Below, one piece after another: positions 28,932-36,775 of a DNA stretch of 64,000 nt. Under the pieces are notes generated by a model, which was given only the letters and a program-made list of their open reading frames with translations, made no database searches and was not told the DNA's origin. This stretch comes from Methylicorpusculum oleiharenae. GTDB lineage: Bacteria > Pseudomonadota > Gammaproteobacteria > Methylococcales > Methylomonadaceae. The position numbers and the translations under genes were made by a program. Each line of letters begins with the position of its first letter. Position 1 is the stretch's first letter. The stretch spans positions 1,704,492 to 1,768,491 of the forward strand of contig NZ_WUTY02000001.1 of the NCBI RefSeq assembly GCF_009828925.2, written 5' to 3'.

Positions 28932-30491
28932 TTAACGGGGCGTATTGTCAGTGTTGTTTTCCGGAGGGCGGATTGGAAACAGGCGTGATCGTGAAGTGGT
29001 CGGTGTTACAGAAGCTGCTGGCGCTGGCTCAGGTGCAGGTGTAACTGAAGGTGTAGGAGAAATTACTGGTGAAGGTGGCGGTGGTGAGACTGCTGCCGGC
29101 GTTTCGCTGGGTATGAACGAGTTTACGCTTGGTGTGGCGGGTGACGGGCTTTCATTCCCATAAACTTGGACACGATCGTTCATCGACAGTACCAATTCTC
29201 TGCTCAAAACAGTTAATTTGTTAAGCCGGGCTTTCATTTCCTTATTCCAGCCGACGGGTGTCGTTGAAGGTAACAACATACGCATTGAGGTCAGGCTTTT
29301 TTCAAAAACGCCCGATAAATTTTCCATGATATTCAGCTCTTTTTGCCGGTCATTAAGACGACCAATGATCAGCTTGGCTTGCAGCTTGCTTATGCCTATA
29401 TGGACGGGGATCATGAAGCCGGTTAGTGCGACCAGAAAAAGAGGTCCGATGATAGGATCAAAAAGCATGGCAAAAAAGCCAATCTGGATTTCGGCGAAAA
29501 GCATTAAGGTGGCTATAAAACCTAAGATGAGCAGACTTGAAAATGTGGACCGCTCTTTCCATAGCACTGTAGCTTCTACAATTTCCGGTATGAATACTTC
29601 CGTGATATCGCGGATGTTTTTTTCCAGAGTGTTCATGATCCGGTAGTTGCGGTAGAGGCCTATCTTATTGATGCGTTGATTTAAAATGCTGATAGAGGGA
29701 GCATTGACGGGATCAAACAGGCTGATTTGACTCGACAGTCCTATAAAATCAGTGGTTTTTATTCCGAGATCATCAAGCTTTCTTTGCCAAGGGCTCACGT
29801 CCAGCTTGTTAGAAGGCGGCTGGTCGATAATGTAGACAAACTTGTTGGAATCTTGCTGTTCAACAATTGTCCGGATTATTTCTTCAATCGCTTCAGGCTC
29901 GACATTAAACGAATCGGCAAAGACCAGCACCAGATCGGAGATGTCGATGGTGTGTTTCGCCAATAAGTTGAAAACCGGTTTTGGAACGGTGTTTTCAGTC
30001 AAATGGGGCAGCTGAATAAATAATTTATCTTTGAGCCGGTCATTGCTAATTGTTTTTAATTCAATAAAGGCGTTGATTTGTTGGCTGCTGCCTGGACTTG
30101 CGCGGTCAATCTCTTTGCTTATCGAGTGAAAAGGCAGGCGGTGATCGGCATCCAGTGCGGTACCGGGAAGAATGACATCATTATTGGGGGTGCAATATTG
30201 CATGACTGCAAATTTGTGGCGAGTTGTTTGAGCGCCCATCCTGGCTTGATGAATATCAATATATTCCTGGATGAAGCGGGACGCCGCCTGGGTGTTTCCG
30301 CCAATGATACTGATAATCGGCCACCAGGTTGTCTTGGTGGCAGTGGTGTCTTCGTCATCAATTAAGCCAAGGTCATACTCGATCTGATCCAGTTCTTGAA
30401 GCACCTTAACCGCTTCACGCAATGCAGGATTGTCCTGTGCAAATTGTTTTTCAATCCCGGCCAAGTGTTTGCTAAGTGTTTTTTTTGTCAT
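28932..30491 (-). CDS. dynamin-family protein with destroyed GTP-binding motifs
   Basis: A 519-residue protein. Residues 55-300 follow the bacterial dynamin-like GTPase pattern (PGTALDADHRLPFHSISKEIDR; then FIELKTISNDRLKDKLFIQLPHL; DISDLVLVFADSFNVEPEAIEEI; DSNKFVYIIDQ), but the P-loop expected as GNxxSGKSS reads GGNTQAASR near residues 64-72, so the Gly-Lys pair is Ala-Ala. The IDxPG motif reads IQLPH, and the NQID-like G4 motif reads DQPP. Two membrane helices lie about residues 325-375, and a Pro/Ser/Thr-rich tail fills residues 445-519. It is probably a non-hydrolysing pseudo-GTPase scaffold at the inner membrane. Family recognition is from memory of these motif contexts. Confidence 0.7.
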   Translation of the reverse strand: MTKKTLSKHLAGIEKQFAQDNPALREAVKVLQELDQIEYDLGLIDDEDTTATKTTWWPIISIIGGNTQAASRFIQEYIDIHQARMGAQTTRHKFAVMQYCTPNNDVILPGTALDADHRLPFHSISKEIDRASPGSSQQINAFIELKTISNDRLKDKLFIQLPHLTENTVPKPVFNLLAKHTIDISDLVLVFADSFNVEPEAIEEIIRTIVEQQDSNKFVYIIDQPPSNKLDVSPWQRKLDDLGIKTTDFIGLSSQISLFDPVNAPSISILNQRINKIGLYRNYRIMNTLEKNIRDITEVFIPEIVEATVLWKERSTFSSLLILGFIATLMLFAEIQIGFFAMLFDPIIGPLFLVALTGFMIPVHIGISKLQAKLIIGRLNDRQKELNIMENLSGVFEKSLTSMRMLLPSTTPVGWNKEMKARLNKLTVLSRELVLSMNDRVQVYGNESPSPATPSVNSFIPSETPAAVSPPPPSPVISPTPSVTPAPEPAPAASVTPTTSRSRLFPIRPPENNTDNTPR

Positions 30492-31638: not shown

Positions 31639-31787
31639 GAATGGCCGGCTTTTTCCTCTAAACATCAAAAAATTGCCTTAACGATTCATTCGGGGCGATA
31701 TTTTGCACCCATCTTTAACCTATCAGGTTTACAGAGAGGAACCAAGGCGCCCATAATTGGTGCACTTTAATTCCTATTCGTTCCGCT

Positions 31788-33539
31788 ATGAAAAAATACT
31801 ACATTGGTCTTTCCGTGACCTATCATGATCCTGGTCTGGCAATTGTTGACGACAACGGCGAAGTTTTGTTTGCCGAGGCTACCGAGCGTTATCTTCAGAG
31901 TAAAAGAGCGATCAATTGTGAGCCGGATCAGTTGAACTGGATAACCGATGTGCTGGACAGCTATTGCAGTTACCCCTGCGAATTTGTAATTGCGACCAAC
32001 TGGCGCAAAAAAAGACCGCATTATGAGCGGCTGATCAGTGGTTTAGGGCTGTTGACGGCAAAAGGGCTGCTTAAAAAAGACCTGAAAAAACTCCGTTCTC
32101 CTTTGGAAAACTACAAGCTGCATCACATGATCGCTTGTCAGCACAGCAGCTACCTTAAAACAGGACTGAATCTGGTCAGACGCTTGAAGGAATTTCACCC
32201 CGAGTGCCCGGTTTCCTTTCTGGATTTCGATCATCATTTGACGCATGCCGCGATGGCTTCTTACAGCAGTCCTTTCAGCAACGCTGCTTGTGCTGTTATC
32301 GATTCTTATGGTGAGAACGGTTCCATGGCTTTTTACCGTTACCATCATGGTAAATTGGATTGCATCCATGAAACGCGGGGTGTCGGCAGTCTGGGGTTCT
32401 TTTACATGAAAATCACCGAGCTGTGCGGATTTGACTGGCTGAAAGGCGAGGAATGGAAAGTCATGGGTCTTGCCGCTTACGGCAAACTGGATCAAAAACT
32501 CTATGACTTGTTGAAAGATACGCTGGCGGTTGATGGTTTAGATTTTGCCGTGCAGCCGCAACACTTTTTTGACCTGCTGGAGGCCTTGAATGCCTATCAG
32601 CAAAAAGAGGAAGATGTATTAAAGAAGGCGGCCGATCTGGCGTTTACCGGCCAGTATTTTTTTGCTGAACTGATGACGCAAATTTTGAAACATTTGAAGG
32701 CAGTGACCGGCGAAGACAATCTGGTTTTGGCCGGCGGCTGTGCCCTCAATTCATCTTATAACGGACAGATTGCAGAACGAACCGGTTTTAAGCAGGCGCA
32801 TATTCCATCGGCCCCGGCCGATGACGGCACCGCCTTGGGTGCGGCTTGGCTGGCTTACCACCGCACACCGGCAAAATCGGCAAAGCCGCCCCAGTTGTTG
32901 ACCCCTTATCTGGGTTCGAGAATCAGCAACGAAGCCATCAACCGGCTAATTCAGTACAACCGATCGCTTGATATTCGGCACTTACCTGATACGCTTTGTG
33001 AAGAAACAGCTCAATTGCTGGCATCCGGTGCCATCGTAGGCTGGGTTCAGGACAGGGCCGAATTTGGGCCGAGATCCTTGGGCAATCGTTCAATTCTGGC
33101 CGATCCCAGAGGCTCAGGCATGAAAGACACCATTAATCAGCACATCAAATTCCGTGAATATTTTCGCCCTTTTGCACCCTCGGTGCTGCATGAATACGGT
33201 CATGAGTATTTTGAAAATTATCAAGAATCACCTTACATGGATAAAACTCTGACCATAAAACCGGCCATGCGCGAATGTATTGCGGCAACTGTTCATGTTG
33301 ATGGGACCGGGCGTCTGCAAACTGTTAAAGAACAGTGGAATCCGCGTTTTTACCGCTTAATCAGTCATTTTCATGCGCTTACCGGCGTGCCTGTGCTGCT
33401 TAACACCAGTTTTAATGTAATGGGCAAACCCTTAATACACAGTCTTGAGGATGCTGTTTCGGTATTTTTAACGACGGGGCTGGATGCTTTAGTCATTGAT
33501 GATTATTTAATCACCAAACCTCATGACCGTAACCACTGA
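31788..33539 (+). CDS. O-carbamoyltransferase, NodU/CmcH/TobZ family
   Basis: A 583-residue, full-length enzyme of the family that moves a carbamoyl group from carbamoyl phosphate through carbamoyl-adenylate to a hydroxyl of a small molecule (Nod factors, cephamycin, tobramycin). The N-terminal Kae1/YgjD-like domain has DFDHHLTHAAMA (metal-binding His region, about residues 146-157), a VIDSYGENGSMAFY segment, and VLAGGCALNSSYNG near residue 315. The C-terminal YrdC-like part has FGPRSLGNRSILADPR near residue 425, FREYFRPFAPSVL near residue 450, and LLNTSFNVMGKPLIHSLEDAV near residue 538. It overlaps the next gene by 17 bases. Substrate unknown; the downstream hydroxylase suggests a lipid or terpenoid alcohol. 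Confidence 0.9.
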   Translation: MKKYYIGLSVTYHDPGLAIVDDNGEVLFAEATERYLQSKRAINCEPDQLNWITDVLDSYCSYPCEFVIATNWRKKRPHYERLISGLGLLTAKGLLKKDLKKLRSPLENYKLHHMIACQHSSYLKTGLNLVRRLKEFHPECPVSFLDFDHHLTHAAMASYSSPFSNAACAVIDSYGENGSMAFYRYHHGKLDCIHETRGVGSLGFFYMKITELCGFDWLKGEEWKVMGLAAYGKLDQKLYDLLKDTLAVDGLDFAVQPQHFFDLLEALNAYQQKEEDVLKKAADLAFTGQYFFAELMTQILKHLKAVTGEDNLVLAGGCALNSSYNGQIAERTGFKQAHIPSAPADDGTALGAAWLAYHRTPAKSAKPPQLLTPYLGSRISNEAINRLIQYNRSLDIRHLPDTLCEETAQLLASGAIVGWVQDRAEFGPRSLGNRSILADPRGSGMKDTINQHIKFREYFRPFAPSVLHEYGHEYFENYQESPYMDKTLTIKPAMRECIAATVHVDGTGRLQTVKEQWNPRFYRLISHFHALTGVPVLLNTSFNVMGKPLIHSLEDAVSVFLTTGLDALVIDDYLITKPHDRNH

Positions 33540-35712
33540 GCATCCCTTTTATCCTTTGCCGAATGACACGTGGCTTGAACGGGATAAAGCGGGTGAGTCT
33601 GACATCAATTCAAGAGATTTATTTCATGCCTTGATCACTATCGGTAGCCATTATGATTGGCTGCCGGATAGCAAATGCTTTTTGGTCACGCAATTACGCA
33701 GGGTTGAAAAGCAGTATGAGTCCTATCTGATGCCATGGAAGGGGGCTGATAATTTGACGGAATGGACCGCAGGTCAAGCCCCCGGAATAGCGTCTGCTCA
33801 AATGACGCCCATTTTAGATACGGCGTGCTTTAAGCTGGCGCTTATGCACGCTGCTCCGGTCATGCTGACTGAACCTTGCTGGCTCAAGTCAATCTCTCAG
33901 GTAGCAAGCTGTCAAACCGAATTGGCGGCAGGTTTGACCCACATTTATCTGTCATTACAAGGCACGGGATCGGCTGAACAGCCTTTCGAAAAGCTTTATC
34001 AGTCCTTGTTACTGAATCAATCCGTGAACTTGTCTGCGATCTATTCACGCAGTTTTTCTCAAAACCCCGAAATTCCCGTTGAAGCGTTCTCGCTGGCATC
34101 CCTGCAGTTGGCCTTTTCATACTTTCCCCGCACCTTTTTACCGGAAATTCTGGGCTTCAGCCTGGCCTATTGCCAGCGAATTACGGGTATGGAAGAACAA
34201 GTGGCCGCGTTTTCAGCCGAGCAGGGCAGCTATTATTTTTCGTATCGTCGAAATCGGCTCCAGATGCAGGTTACCCCTTTACTCAACTGCATCTCGGGTT
34301 ACCTCGATCTTTTGACCGGCCATGATGAACAGCAGATGCAGGTCTGGCGAAGAATCCAGTGCGGTTATTACCTATCTATTGATTCAGCGGAAAAATTAAG
34401 TAAGGTCAGTCAGTTGCAAAGGCTTGCCAATGGTTCCGTACAAGACGCATTGAGGGTTTTATTGAGCCGAAAAGCGAACGCGGCACAAGGTCATCATGGC
34501 CGGATTCAATTGGGTGGAAAGCCGTTGGATCACTGGTTTGCTGAATCGCCTTTTGACGCAGACGGATTTTTAAATGCGGTCAAAGCATCACGCTATTACA
34601 ACTCCGATGATCCAGGTCGCAGTGAACTGCTGAAACTGTTTTCGTTTGAAGGTCCGATGTTTGGCGTCATGACGGCTGACGAAACAGCCATATTAAAAGC
34701 CTGGCTGATGGATAAGCCGCTTGACGTTGTGCCGGTTAGTCAAGAATTACCCGCTGCTGAAAACCGCAAGTTTAGTAAACAAACTCTTAACGTTTCCGGG
34801 TCGCTTACCAACCGTGAATTGTTTTATCGGTTAGTCAATATCGAGCAATACCCGGATAGCTTGCCTATCGCCAAACAGAAGGCCCGGCAGCTAGTGATCA
34901 GCGCGGGACGCTGGCATAAGCCAATACTTAACGCCTATTCACAAGCAGCATTCGACTCGTGGTTTGAATCTTTTTACCGGCAAGAGATGTCCGCATACCG
35001 GCCATTGACCCAGAAACCCCGATTATCCCGGGAGGCCTATGTCTTTGGTATTGAACAATTTGCGCCGGCGATTTTGACCGACGGTTGCTGGCTACAGCAA
35101 AGCGGGCAACTGGATTTTTTACCGTTCAAATCCATAGGCGAAAAGCTGCAGCTTATTTTTTACGATGAGATAGGGGCGGGCATCAGGCATCAGAACCATC
35201 CTTATATATATGACCGGTTGTTGAAAAGTCTGGATATTCAACTGCCCCCGGTGCAAAGCAAGGCGTTCAGTAAGCACCCCGGTTTTATTGACAGTGCCTT
35301 TGATTTACCCGTATTCATGATGTCACTTGGATTTTTTCCGGCTGAATTTTTGCCCGAGTTGCTGGGCCTTAATTTGGCGATTGAACTCAGCGGATTGGGC
35401 AAGACCTATTTGCGTTTGGCCGATGAGCTGCAATTTTGGGGAATTGACCCGGCGATTATAAAGTTGCATGTCACTATTGATAACACCGATACCGGTCACG
35501 CGGCAATCGCTAAAGAAGCCATTCATGCTTATCTGGATGACATCGGTGCCGGATCTGATCAGCGAACCCAGCAAAAGCATTGGCGGCGGATTTCGGCAGG
35601 ATATGCTTCCTTAAACACCGTAACCCGCTGGTTTAAATGGGCGTTAGTCATCCGATATCTGAGTATGAAACTGCCCCGGCAACCTTTCTCAATCCCAAGT
35701 TTGTCTCGCTAG
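33523..35712 (+). CDS. two-domain heme-oxygenase-like iron-containing redox enzyme (HDO superfamily)
   Basis: A 729-residue protein built from two similar halves. The C-terminal half has the pattern of heme-oxygenase-like diiron enzymes: APAILTDGCWLQQ (about residues 520-532), DEIGAG near residue 550, FFPAEFLPELLGLNLAIELSG near residue 608, and the metal motif HVTIDNTDTGH (His649, Asp653, His659). The N-terminal half repeats APVMLTEPCWLK (about 110-121) and YFPRTFLPEILGFSLAY near residue 205 but lacks the His-Asp-His motif. Between them a segment with LGGKPLDHWF and FEGPMFGVMTADE (about 328-395) is typical of the same family. It overlaps the carbamoyltransferase by 17 bases and precedes the hydroxylase by 13. 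Reaction unknown; relatives do N-oxygenation, C-C cleavage or desaturation. Confidence 0.72.
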   Translation: MTVTTEHPFYPLPNDTWLERDKAGESDINSRDLFHALITIGSHYDWLPDSKCFLVTQLRRVEKQYESYLMPWKGADNLTEWTAGQAPGIASAQMTPILDTACFKLALMHAAPVMLTEPCWLKSISQVASCQTELAAGLTHIYLSLQGTGSAEQPFEKLYQSLLLNQSVNLSAIYSRSFSQNPEIPVEAFSLASLQLAFSYFPRTFLPEILGFSLAYCQRITGMEEQVAAFSAEQGSYYFSYRRNRLQMQVTPLLNCISGYLDLLTGHDEQQMQVWRRIQCGYYLSIDSAEKLSKVSQLQRLANGSVQDALRVLLSRKANAAQGHHGRIQLGGKPLDHWFAESPFDADGFLNAVKASRYYNSDDPGRSELLKLFSFEGPMFGVMTADETAILKAWLMDKPLDVVPVSQELPAAENRKFSKQTLNVSGSLTNRELFYRLVNIEQYPDSLPIAKQKARQLVISAGRWHKPILNAYSQAAFDSWFESFYRQEMSAYRPLTQKPRLSREAYVFGIEQFAPAILTDGCWLQQSGQLDFLPFKSIGEKLQLIFYDEIGAGIRHQNHPYIYDRLLKSLDIQLPPVQSKAFSKHPGFIDSAFDLPVFMMSLGFFPAEFLPELLGLNLAIELSGLGKTYLRLADELQFWGIDPAIIKLHVTIDNTDTGHAAIAKEAIHAYLDDIGAGSDQRTQQKHWRRISAGYASLNTVTRWFKWALVIRYLSMKLPRQPFSIPSLSR

Positions 35713-35725
35713 GTTCCCTGACATC

Positions 35726-36775
35726 ATGACTTCACGACTCAGCAGTTTATTGAGCCTTATATTTCCCATCACATCGCTGCTTTTTCTTAATTCAGGACCG
35801 CACGCTGTTACAGACGCGTTGCTGTGGACGTTGCCTTTCTGGTTGGTATTGGCTGTTGATTGGTTAAGTCCGTCAATGAAAACCCTGTCTGTAAAAAACA
35901 GTCCGCAAGGGTTTTATAATGGCCTGCTTTACGGACTGGCTTTACTTCAGTTTATAAACATTGCCGTGATGATCAAATTTGTCAGCGAGCTAGCCTGGCT
36001 TACACCCCAGGACATCGTGAGCAGTCTCATCAACCTGTTGGTCGTCCGCTTTCTGGTAGGAACATCCTCTTGCTGCTCCGGCATTATTGTTGCCCATGAG
36101 CTGATTCATCGGGGCCGCCCCGTGCAGCGCTTGCTAGGTCGCCTGTTGCTGATGAGTGTTTGTTATGATCATTTTGCGGTTGCGCACAAACGCGGGCATC
36201 ACAGTCATATCGGAACGCCGCACGATATCACTACGGCGCAACGTCATGAGAGTTTCAAAACTTACTGGCGCCGTGTTGCCAAAGAGCACTTTCTCTACGC
36301 CTGGCGCTGCGAAAAGCGAAGGCTGGATAAAAATAGCCGGGGGTTTTTACGTAATACGGTTTCAAACACGGTATTGCAAGGCCTGTTAATCGAATTGGCA
36401 GTCGTTGGATTCATCTATGCTGAGTTTGGCCTTTTGTGCGCAGCAATGTTTTTGTATCAGGCTTACTCGGCAATTCGGATGCTGGAGGCCGTCAACTACT
36501 TTCAGCATTGGGGATTAACCGAAGAAGAATCACATGATGCGATTGCCTGGGTCAGTGATAGCTGGTTTTCTAATCTGCTGTTGTTAGGCTTGCCGTGTCA
36601 CATTTGCCATCATCAGAATGCGACCGTGCAATTTCAGGATCTGGTGTATTACGACCAAGGCCCAAAAATGCCTTACGGTTACTTTGTAACCAATCTTTGG
36701 GTGCGGCTGAGCAATGCCTCGTTCAGACAAAATGCAGCGCTGCAATTGGAAAGTTATTCGCGCAGGGGGGACTAG
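35726..36775 (+). CDS. AlkB/XylM-like integral-membrane diiron hydroxylase (fatty acid desaturase superfamily)
   Basis: A 349-residue membrane protein with the full histidine set of alkane-monooxygenase-type enzymes: HELIH (124-128), HKRGHHSH (154-161), NYFQHWG (257-263, the AlkB-like NYxxHxG signature) and HICHH (292-296), spread over about six helices. These enzymes use O2 and electrons from rubredoxin or ferredoxin to hydroxylate a terminal methyl or similar C-H bond. No rubredoxin gene is adjacent. It starts 13 bases after the HDO gene as the last of three tightly packed genes, so its product may be the alcohol used by the carbamoyltransferase. Confidence 0.85.
   Translation: MTSRLSSLLSLIFPITSLLFLNSGPHAVTDALLWTLPFWLVLAVDWLSPSMKTLSVKNSPQGFYNGLLYGLALLQFINIAVMIKFVSELAWLTPQDIVSSLINLLVVRFLVGTSSCCSGIIVAHELIHRGRPVQRLLGRLLLMSVCYDHFAVAHKRGHHSHIGTPHDITTAQRHESFKTYWRRVAKEHFLYAWRCEKRRLDKNSRGFLRNTVSNTVLQGLLIELAVVGFIYAEFGLLCAAMFLYQAYSAIRMLEAVNYFQHWGLTEEESHDAIAWVSDSWFSNLLLLGLPCHICHHQNATVQFQDLVYYDQGPKMPYGYFVTNLWVRLSNASFRQNAALQLESYSRRGD

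Follow-up and report, generated by a model that had tools for sequence, protein, structure and literature searches.

Why does a methanotroph carry the genes for a carbamoyltransferase, a haem-oxygenase-like protein and a membrane hydroxylase directly next to each other? The question arises from a stretch of 64,000 nucleotides of the 5.85 Mb genome of the type I methanotroph (Methylococcales) Methylicorpusculum oleiharenae (contig NZ_WUTY02000001.1, positions 1,704,492 to 1,768,491; referred to as the window), in which three open reading frames (ORFs) follow one another on the plus strand. They code for a NodU/CmcH-type O-carbamoyltransferase (CT, 583 amino acids, 31788–33539), a tandem haem-oxygenase-like protein (HDO, 729 amino acids, 33523–35712) and an AlkB-type membrane hydroxylase (349 amino acids, 35726–36775); the CT and HDO genes overlap by 17 bp, and the HDO gene is separated from the AlkB-like gene by 13 bp. 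The initial annotation, made from the sequence alone, had named these families and the operon layout, and both are confirmed by ORF calling and by Pfam and PDB sequence searches. The three genes are coupled as a unit, a conclusion we draw with high confidence, and this module is real, widespread and, as far as the openly licensed PubMed Central literature shows, undescribed: no openly licensed paper was found there that pairs any two of carbamoyltransferase, HDO and alkane hydroxylase, or that joins carbamoyltransferase with Methylococc- organisms. The module is a variant of the CT–tandem HDO pair of gvg gene clusters, coupled to an AlkB hydroxylase.

Joint retention of the three genes

The host genome and 120 relatives (121 genomes) were searched with each module protein. 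HDO matches occurred in 59 genomes, CT matches in 83 (60 of them at 50% identity or more), and AlkB matches in 71 (60 at 33% identity or more); the other 11 AlkB matches are distant and all belong to one genus (g35) of another family. With these identity limits, which were chosen after the listings had been seen, all three genes are present in 58 genomes and none in 60, while three hold incomplete sets: G100 lacks AlkB, G106 lacks HDO, and the AlkB fragment of G067 contains a stop. One genome, G020, was scored as complete although its HDO and AlkB matches are short pieces. Fisher tests on co-occurrence, in which kinship is ignored, gave p < 1e-30. HDO is found in 31 of the 73 genomes of the window's family and in 28 of the 48 genomes of other families of the order. 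The assumption that the three enzymes act as one pathway, for which homologues scattered independently among relatives had been named as the refuting outcome, is thus supported by their joint retention. The module is also kept in genomes of 1.5–2.2 Mb (G068, G047, G031 and G054), and one of the small-genome carriers, L090, is a sponge symbiont according to its record; retention in such small genomes argues for a cellular rather than an antibiotic role.

Gene order was compared in 40 fetched neighbourhoods, 37 of which hold both CT and AlkB. AlkB lies downstream in the same direction in 22 of these, all from the window's family, and on the opposite strand upstream of CT in the remaining 15, all from other families and in one case 4.2 kb away. 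Of the 38 fetched loci with CT and HDO on one strand, 37 show an overlap of the two ORFs; the overlap lengths are rough, as ORFs were taken from the most upstream start, for which reason four exceed 200 bases. In G088, AlkB is located on a separate contig, and in G031 and G054 the CT gene lies on a different contig from HDO and AlkB, so that the unit is retained even where its genes are unlinked. A set of 80 named loci, short contigs included, comprises 47 with all three genes (23 in the same direction, 24 divergent), 15 with CT and HDO only, six with HDO and AlkB only, and 12 with HDO only. The complete loci include those of Methylobacter favarea, Methyloprofundus, Methylocaldum, Methylococcus capsulatus Texas (L118), Methylohalobius and a symbiont of the snail Gigantopelta; among the named loci, the three genes occur together almost exclusively in methanotrophs.

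Two sets of loci deserve separate mention. The CT and HDO of L134, from a record named Methyloversatilis universalis, group closely with those of Methylocaldum, and the bin name may be wrong. In L065, L101 (a short contig) and L106, from Methylobacter and Crenothrix, a tandem HDO that has neither CT nor AlkB in its vicinity is close to a Leucothrix protein in the HDO tree.

The carbamoyltransferase and the AlkB-type hydroxylase

Enzymes of the NodU/CmcH family carbamoylate hydroxyl groups. The window CT contains both domains of the NodU/TobZ/NovN/GdmN O-carbamoyltransferases, namely Carbam_trans_N (PF02543, E 1.2e-30, 107.6 bits against a gathering score of 24) and Carbam_trans_C (PF16861, E 7e-70, 234.4 bits against 27), and is homologous to the solved carbamoyltransferases 9s2t, GdmN and TobZ; residues H149, H150 and H153 are invariant in an alignment of 15 rows. 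However, it scores far below the cut-off of the NodU equivalog NF041651 of NCBIfam (155.3 versus 1000 bits), and the module CTs form a long-branched clade of their own. In a midpoint-rooted tree of 38 hand-chosen rows, the 16 module rows make up one fully supported group, which also takes in L187, an additional CT from one of the relatives, and which stands apart from nine gvg-type CTs, which are themselves one clade, and from 12 other CTs. Second CTs near the module clade, with 50–52% identity, were observed in L187 (G073:C88), G080:C24 and G086:C17; that of L187 stands beside a USC-gamma CT in the tree, and a weak radical SAM match adjoins the second CT in G073 and G080. The structure model of the window CT (pLDDT 70.2, pTM 0.68, residues 100–124 under 50) was not used for any conclusion.

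AlkB enzymes hydroxylate hydrocarbon chains using rubredoxin. The third gene product of the window matches PF00487 (E 4.5e-27), and its two significant PDB matches are the AlkB structures 8f6t (2e-29) and 8sbb (1.6e-22). Its histidine motifs HELIH (36095–36109), HKRGHH (36185–36202) and HICHH (36599–36613), all encoded on the plus strand, are accompanied by NYFQHWGL (36494–36517), which resembles NYxEHYGL, a hallmark of AlkB. The His motifs are conserved in an alignment of 14 rows, one of which (L068) was read in the wrong frame. Homology to solved AlkB together with these motifs assigns the protein to the AlkB alkane hydroxylase family. It shares the histidine motifs and NYFQHWGL with alkane 1-monooxygenase, but its gene lacks an adjacent rubredoxin gene and is coupled to CT and HDO instead. 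Three rubredoxins above cut-off are encoded elsewhere in the host genome.

The tandem haem-oxygenase-like protein

The HDO matches PF14518 with 55.1 bits (gathering score 28.9, E 1.1e-14), the best stretch comprising residues 543–694. Alignment and structure model (pLDDT 83.3) indicate a tandem protein in which the candidate metal ligands are confined to the C-terminal half (residues 427–722, 34801–35688), which is likely to be catalytic, while the N-terminal HDO-fold half (residues 20–303 approximately, 33580–34431) has no ligand set and is likely to be structural. Di-iron HDOs have three His and three or four carboxylate ligands on their core helices; the seven candidates for these, E549, H559, E612, E621, H649, D653 and H659, which may bind metal, are identical in 92 of 94 homologues, in the C-terminal half only. 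The linker between the halves (34450–34722), with its GHHG...GPMFGV motifs, is likewise conserved, residues H325, G377 and M379 being mostly retained; a cytochrome-c-like origin of the GHHG part is purely conjectural.

In a structure comparison with the HDO model, the C-terminal half ranked nearest to RohS (22.6) and SznF (21.6) and the N-terminal half nearest to HrmI (22.3), followed at lower scores by FlcD (17.5), CADD (15.4), BesC (14.7, N-terminal half) and UndA (13.8). As modelled, the protein thus appears closest to N-oxygenating HDOs. The HDOs nearest by fold oxidise guanidine, amino-imidazole or amine nitrogen; RohS is described as acting on 2-aminoimidazole and SznF on guanidine in the parts of the literature consulted. 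With RohS, the window protein also shares a conserved DE...H stretch within a weak profile match. It differs from RohS, HrmI and SznF in being a tandem protein with a ligand-free half, and one ligand spacing seems different from the usual one. In a midpoint-rooted tree of 39 rows, many of which fail the composition test, the module HDOs, interspersed with four other proteins, are set apart by a split of weak support (75/93), and the gvg HDOs are intermixed with actinobacterial and planctomycete proteins.

Relation to gvg-type gene clusters

A tandem HDO gene beside a CT gene is also found outside the methanotrophs. Six Pseudomonas loci and one Reinekea locus have five further genes in common; in L144 one of them codes for a protein related to the crocagin hydrolase CgnD (8a2n, E 1e-49), two for ATP-grasp proteins, and the others for LysE and an oxygenase of the TauD type. 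In Agrobacterium vitis the pair is accompanied by an annotated SGNH/GDSL hydrolase and LysE, and it occurs as well in Photobacterium and in a Pseudonocardiaceae genome. Among 298 Pseudomonas genomes, with three candidates scored per genome, the HDO profile was matched in 193, mostly weakly. Strong matches (315–477 bits) occurred at 16 places in 15 genomes; 11 of these places were fetched, and ten contain CT and hydrolase genes while L163 contains neither (L164 and L165 are the same records as L144 and L145). Locus L161 contains, in this order, genes for a GDSL hydrolase, HDO, an amidinotransferase-type protein of the arginine-deiminase family, LysE, CT, a class III aminotransferase and a formyltransferase. 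This is the order of the core gvg genes, to which the comparison is confined; the hydrolase and the amidinotransferase-type protein score just under the Pfam cut-off. According to the parts of the literature consulted, knockouts of gvgC (HDO) and gvgF (CT) lose the activity of 4-formylaminooxyvinylglycine (FVG), a compound carrying an aminooxy group with its O–N bond, and the role of gvgC is given there as unknown.

Across 18 gvg and gvg-like loci, the HDOs belong to the same tandem family as the window protein, with 25–30% identity; a NodU-type CT gene is adjacent in 16 of them, and in the HDO alignment all seven candidate ligands are present in 19 gvg-like rows, two of which are duplicates. 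In contrast to these clusters, the module comprises an AlkB-type membrane hydroxylase and a CT of another clade, and it lacks SGNH hydrolase, LysE, aminotransferase and formyltransferase genes. No gvgA-type hydrolase, class III aminotransferase or formyltransferase was found among five scanned window neighbours or among the genes conserved across the 80 named loci, and a CgnD-type hydrolase, considered as a hidden fourth gene, gave no match in the 121 genomes with one query and no positive control. The initial annotation had regarded a link of the CT to a known antibiotic locus, with the other two as unrelated lipid genes, as speaking against its proposal; the HDO family does occur in known antimetabolite loci, but the CT lineage does not. 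Since the module and gvg CTs fall into separate clades, CT and HDO may have become paired repeatedly. The simplest reading of the trees would be that one HDO family acquired partners from different CT lineages, and the HDO may therefore use carbamoylated substrates.

HDO–CT pairing is common yet not obligatory. A branch of tandem HDOs without CT is represented by L163, L168 and L169, and acyl-CoA dehydrogenase genes follow the tandem HDO gene on the Streptomyces and Sinorhizobium plasmids.

Proposed chemistry and alternatives

The reading we prefer, to which we give slightly less than an even chance, is that the three enzymes together carry out an oxidative tailoring route in methanotrophs, proceeding by hydroxylation, O-carbamoylation and N-oxidation to an N-hydroxycarbamate or an alkoxyamine. 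The membrane-bound di-iron enzyme of the AlkB type, served by a rubredoxin encoded elsewhere in the genome, would hydroxylate a hydrophobic molecule; the CT would place a carbamoyl group on a hydroxyl, most simply the one made by AlkB; and the C-terminal half of the HDO would oxidise the carbamate nitrogen. The product would be an N-hydroxycarbamate, bidentate and hydroxamate-like, or, if the carbamoyl carbon is lost, an alkoxyamine. Such a pathway may be the lipid counterpart of a chemistry known until now from small amino acids that resemble antibiotics. This order of steps is suggested by the chemistries of AlkB, of CTs and of the nearest HDOs, and N-oxidation of the carbamate is proposed because its NH2 group is a nitrogen related to the substrates of RohS and SznF. 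We infer the order of the steps, the oxidation of the carbamate nitrogen and the lipid nature of the substrate, and hold the chemistry of the module with moderate confidence. The N-hydroxycarbamate is slightly favoured over the alkoxyamine, because the hydrolase search of the 121 genomes, run without a control, found no gvg-type enzyme.

Several observations weigh against this pathway. A Foldseek search with the HDO model gave no match at E <= 0.001, the profile match of the HDO to RohS is non-significant (E 0.057), and the N-oxygenases are larger domains. The spacing of H649, D653 and H659 and the break of the third helix at residues 653–658 look unusual in the model. The CT–HDO pairs outside the methanotrophs have no AlkB gene nearby, and tandem HDOs often occur without CT, as in Streptomyces, Sinorhizobium, Nocardia, Planctomycetota and others. 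In a whole-genome search of 12 draft genomes, AlkB was found in six, once with an in-frame stop, and the drafts behind the CT–HDO loci L123 (a USC-gamma metagenome-assembled genome), L128 and L143 gave no AlkB match. The lack of any match to the gvg-type hydrolase in the 121 genomes, with one query and no positive control, and the midpoint root of the CT tree are to be counted on the same side.

The initial annotation had instead viewed the carbamate as a final cap, in which case AlkB and HDO would carry out C–H oxidations (hydroxylation, desaturation or cleavage) and the CT would carbamoylate their product. UndA and BesC, which perform C–H or C–C chemistry, have the same fold as the HDO, and the steps may also run in this order. 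However, the N-oxygenases rank nearer in the fold comparison, and relatives of the HDO accompany CTs in the gvg loci, which give a product with an O–N bond; the carbamate is therefore more likely to be the substrate of the HDO, and the final cap is doubtful, with a chance that we put as low though not negligible.

A variant of the preferred pathway, in which the HDO excises the carbamoyl carbon and converts R-O-CO-NH2 to the alkoxyamine R-O-NH2, as the gvg system may do, appears rather improbable. It is consistent with the aminooxy group of FVG, a compound that requires gvgC and gvgF according to the literature, and with carbon excision by the HDO FlcD. However, the gvg hydrolase and small ORFs were not found here (the hydrolase with one query in 121 genomes), and FlcD is devoid of two of the usual ligands, which the C-terminal half of the window protein seems to keep.

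Nature of the substrate

A membrane lipid is the likely substrate. The hydrophobic target assumed from the outset is supported in part, as judged from the membrane-bound AlkB-type enzyme and from the absence of exporter, nonribosomal peptide synthetase and polyketide synthase genes within the three-gene unit, which contains no regulator gene either. Two accessory genes, confined to one part of the tree, also hint at lipids. A DUF4070 protein with a radical SAM match just under the Pfam cut-off (L079, 4582–6243, the copy scanned with Pfam) is encoded directly upstream of CT in eight of the 80 named loci. At E <= 1e-60 it is present in 12 of the 121 genomes, all of which contain HDO, and is absent from the host genome; its distance to CT is <0.4 kb in nine of the 12 and 1.6–1.7 kb in three, and it stays near CT even in G031 and G054, where CT is split from HDO and AlkB. 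The second gene, for a CDP-alcohol phosphatidyltransferase (L079, 12096–12674, the copy scanned with Pfam), follows AlkB in four named loci (L079, L094, L096 and L115), and comes after HDO in L128, which gave no AlkB match; three copies scored under all NCBIfam cut-offs. Identification of the radical SAM neighbour as HpnR or HpnJ was rejected, as the three proteins scanned scored far under both cut-offs.

Hopanoids had been suggested as a possible substrate, and the hpn pathway resembles the proposed route in being a lipid pathway of methanotrophs whose products contain nitrogen and carbamate. The module might accordingly introduce the additional hydroxyl groups of the side chain (as in aminotetrol and aminopentol), or form the methylcarbamate termini, of the bacteriohopanepolyols (BHPs) of methanotrophs. 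In type I methanotrophs, amino-BHPs with a methylcarbamate have been described (PMC5100885), and 57 of the 59 genomes with HDO have HpnH above cut-off. However, the distribution of hpn genes does not appear to match that of the module: HpnH, with 102 of the 121 genomes, is too widespread to discriminate, and HpnR, above cut-off in 19 genomes, occurs in 12 of the 59 with HDO and seven of the 62 without, so that a link to 3-methylhopanoids is not supported either. Every type I strain tested was reported to make methylcarbamate BHPs, apparently a wider range than that of the module (HDO in 31/73 genomes of the window's family), and their carbamate was provisionally assigned to the C-35 amine, in the form of a methyl ester (PMC5100885). 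A record named Methylomicrobium sp. RS1 (L074) has the module, but the Methylomicrobium strains of that study made no aminopentol. Neither gene distribution nor BHP literature gives specific support to a hopanoid; methylcarbamate or aminopentol hopanoids are unlikely as products, and hopanoid tailoring by the module as a whole is quite improbable.

A soluble antimetabolite or signal derived from an amino acid, as is FVG, for which the AlkB-like enzyme would use a small substrate other than a lipid, would fit the loci in which the CT–HDO pair occurs elsewhere, but is very improbable, as AlkB enzymes act on hydrocarbons, the module is kept in small symbiont genomes, and no exporter, aminotransferase, ligase or hydrolase gene is conserved with it in the 80 named loci.

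Flanking genes and signals

Pfam identified a cytochrome c and a mechanosensitive channel among the five window neighbours scanned; the other three had no family above cut-off. A DEAD-box helicase was identified from its translation farther upstream. A 519-amino-acid protein (28932–30491, minus strand) without a Pfam match above cut-off is encoded near the module in both same-genus genomes. The promoter and terminator scan of the region was uninformative: a weak promoter-like match precedes CT (31728–31757, plus strand), with three such matches in the region versus 6.9 in shuffled sequences.

Implications

In the literature drawn on, the word start 'Methylo' is absent from the main text of PMC8064604; parts of PMC11844350, PMC8067088, PMC13108848, PMC10849742, PMC9679993, PMC10070186, PMC10724926, PMC8102298 and PMC11363339 were also used.

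As a speculative extension, which we consider improbable, many type I methanotrophs might make a membrane lipid with an N-hydroxycarbamate or alkoxyamine group, in which AlkB would provide the hydroxyl, CT the carbamate and HDO the N–O bond. We know of no lipid in which an N-hydroxycarbamate group occurs. If such a lipid exists, it would be a hydroxamate-like metal ligand held in the membrane, possibly for the copper or iron needed in methane oxidation. The occurrence of tandem HDOs beside CTs suggests that these proteins act on carbamoyltransferase products, which would help to explain the formation of the O–N bond in FVG-type pathways. The module predicts that many of the bacteria that keep methane emissions in check make a so far unrecognised compound, probably a lipid, and the locus of Methylococcus capsulatus Texas makes this prediction testable.

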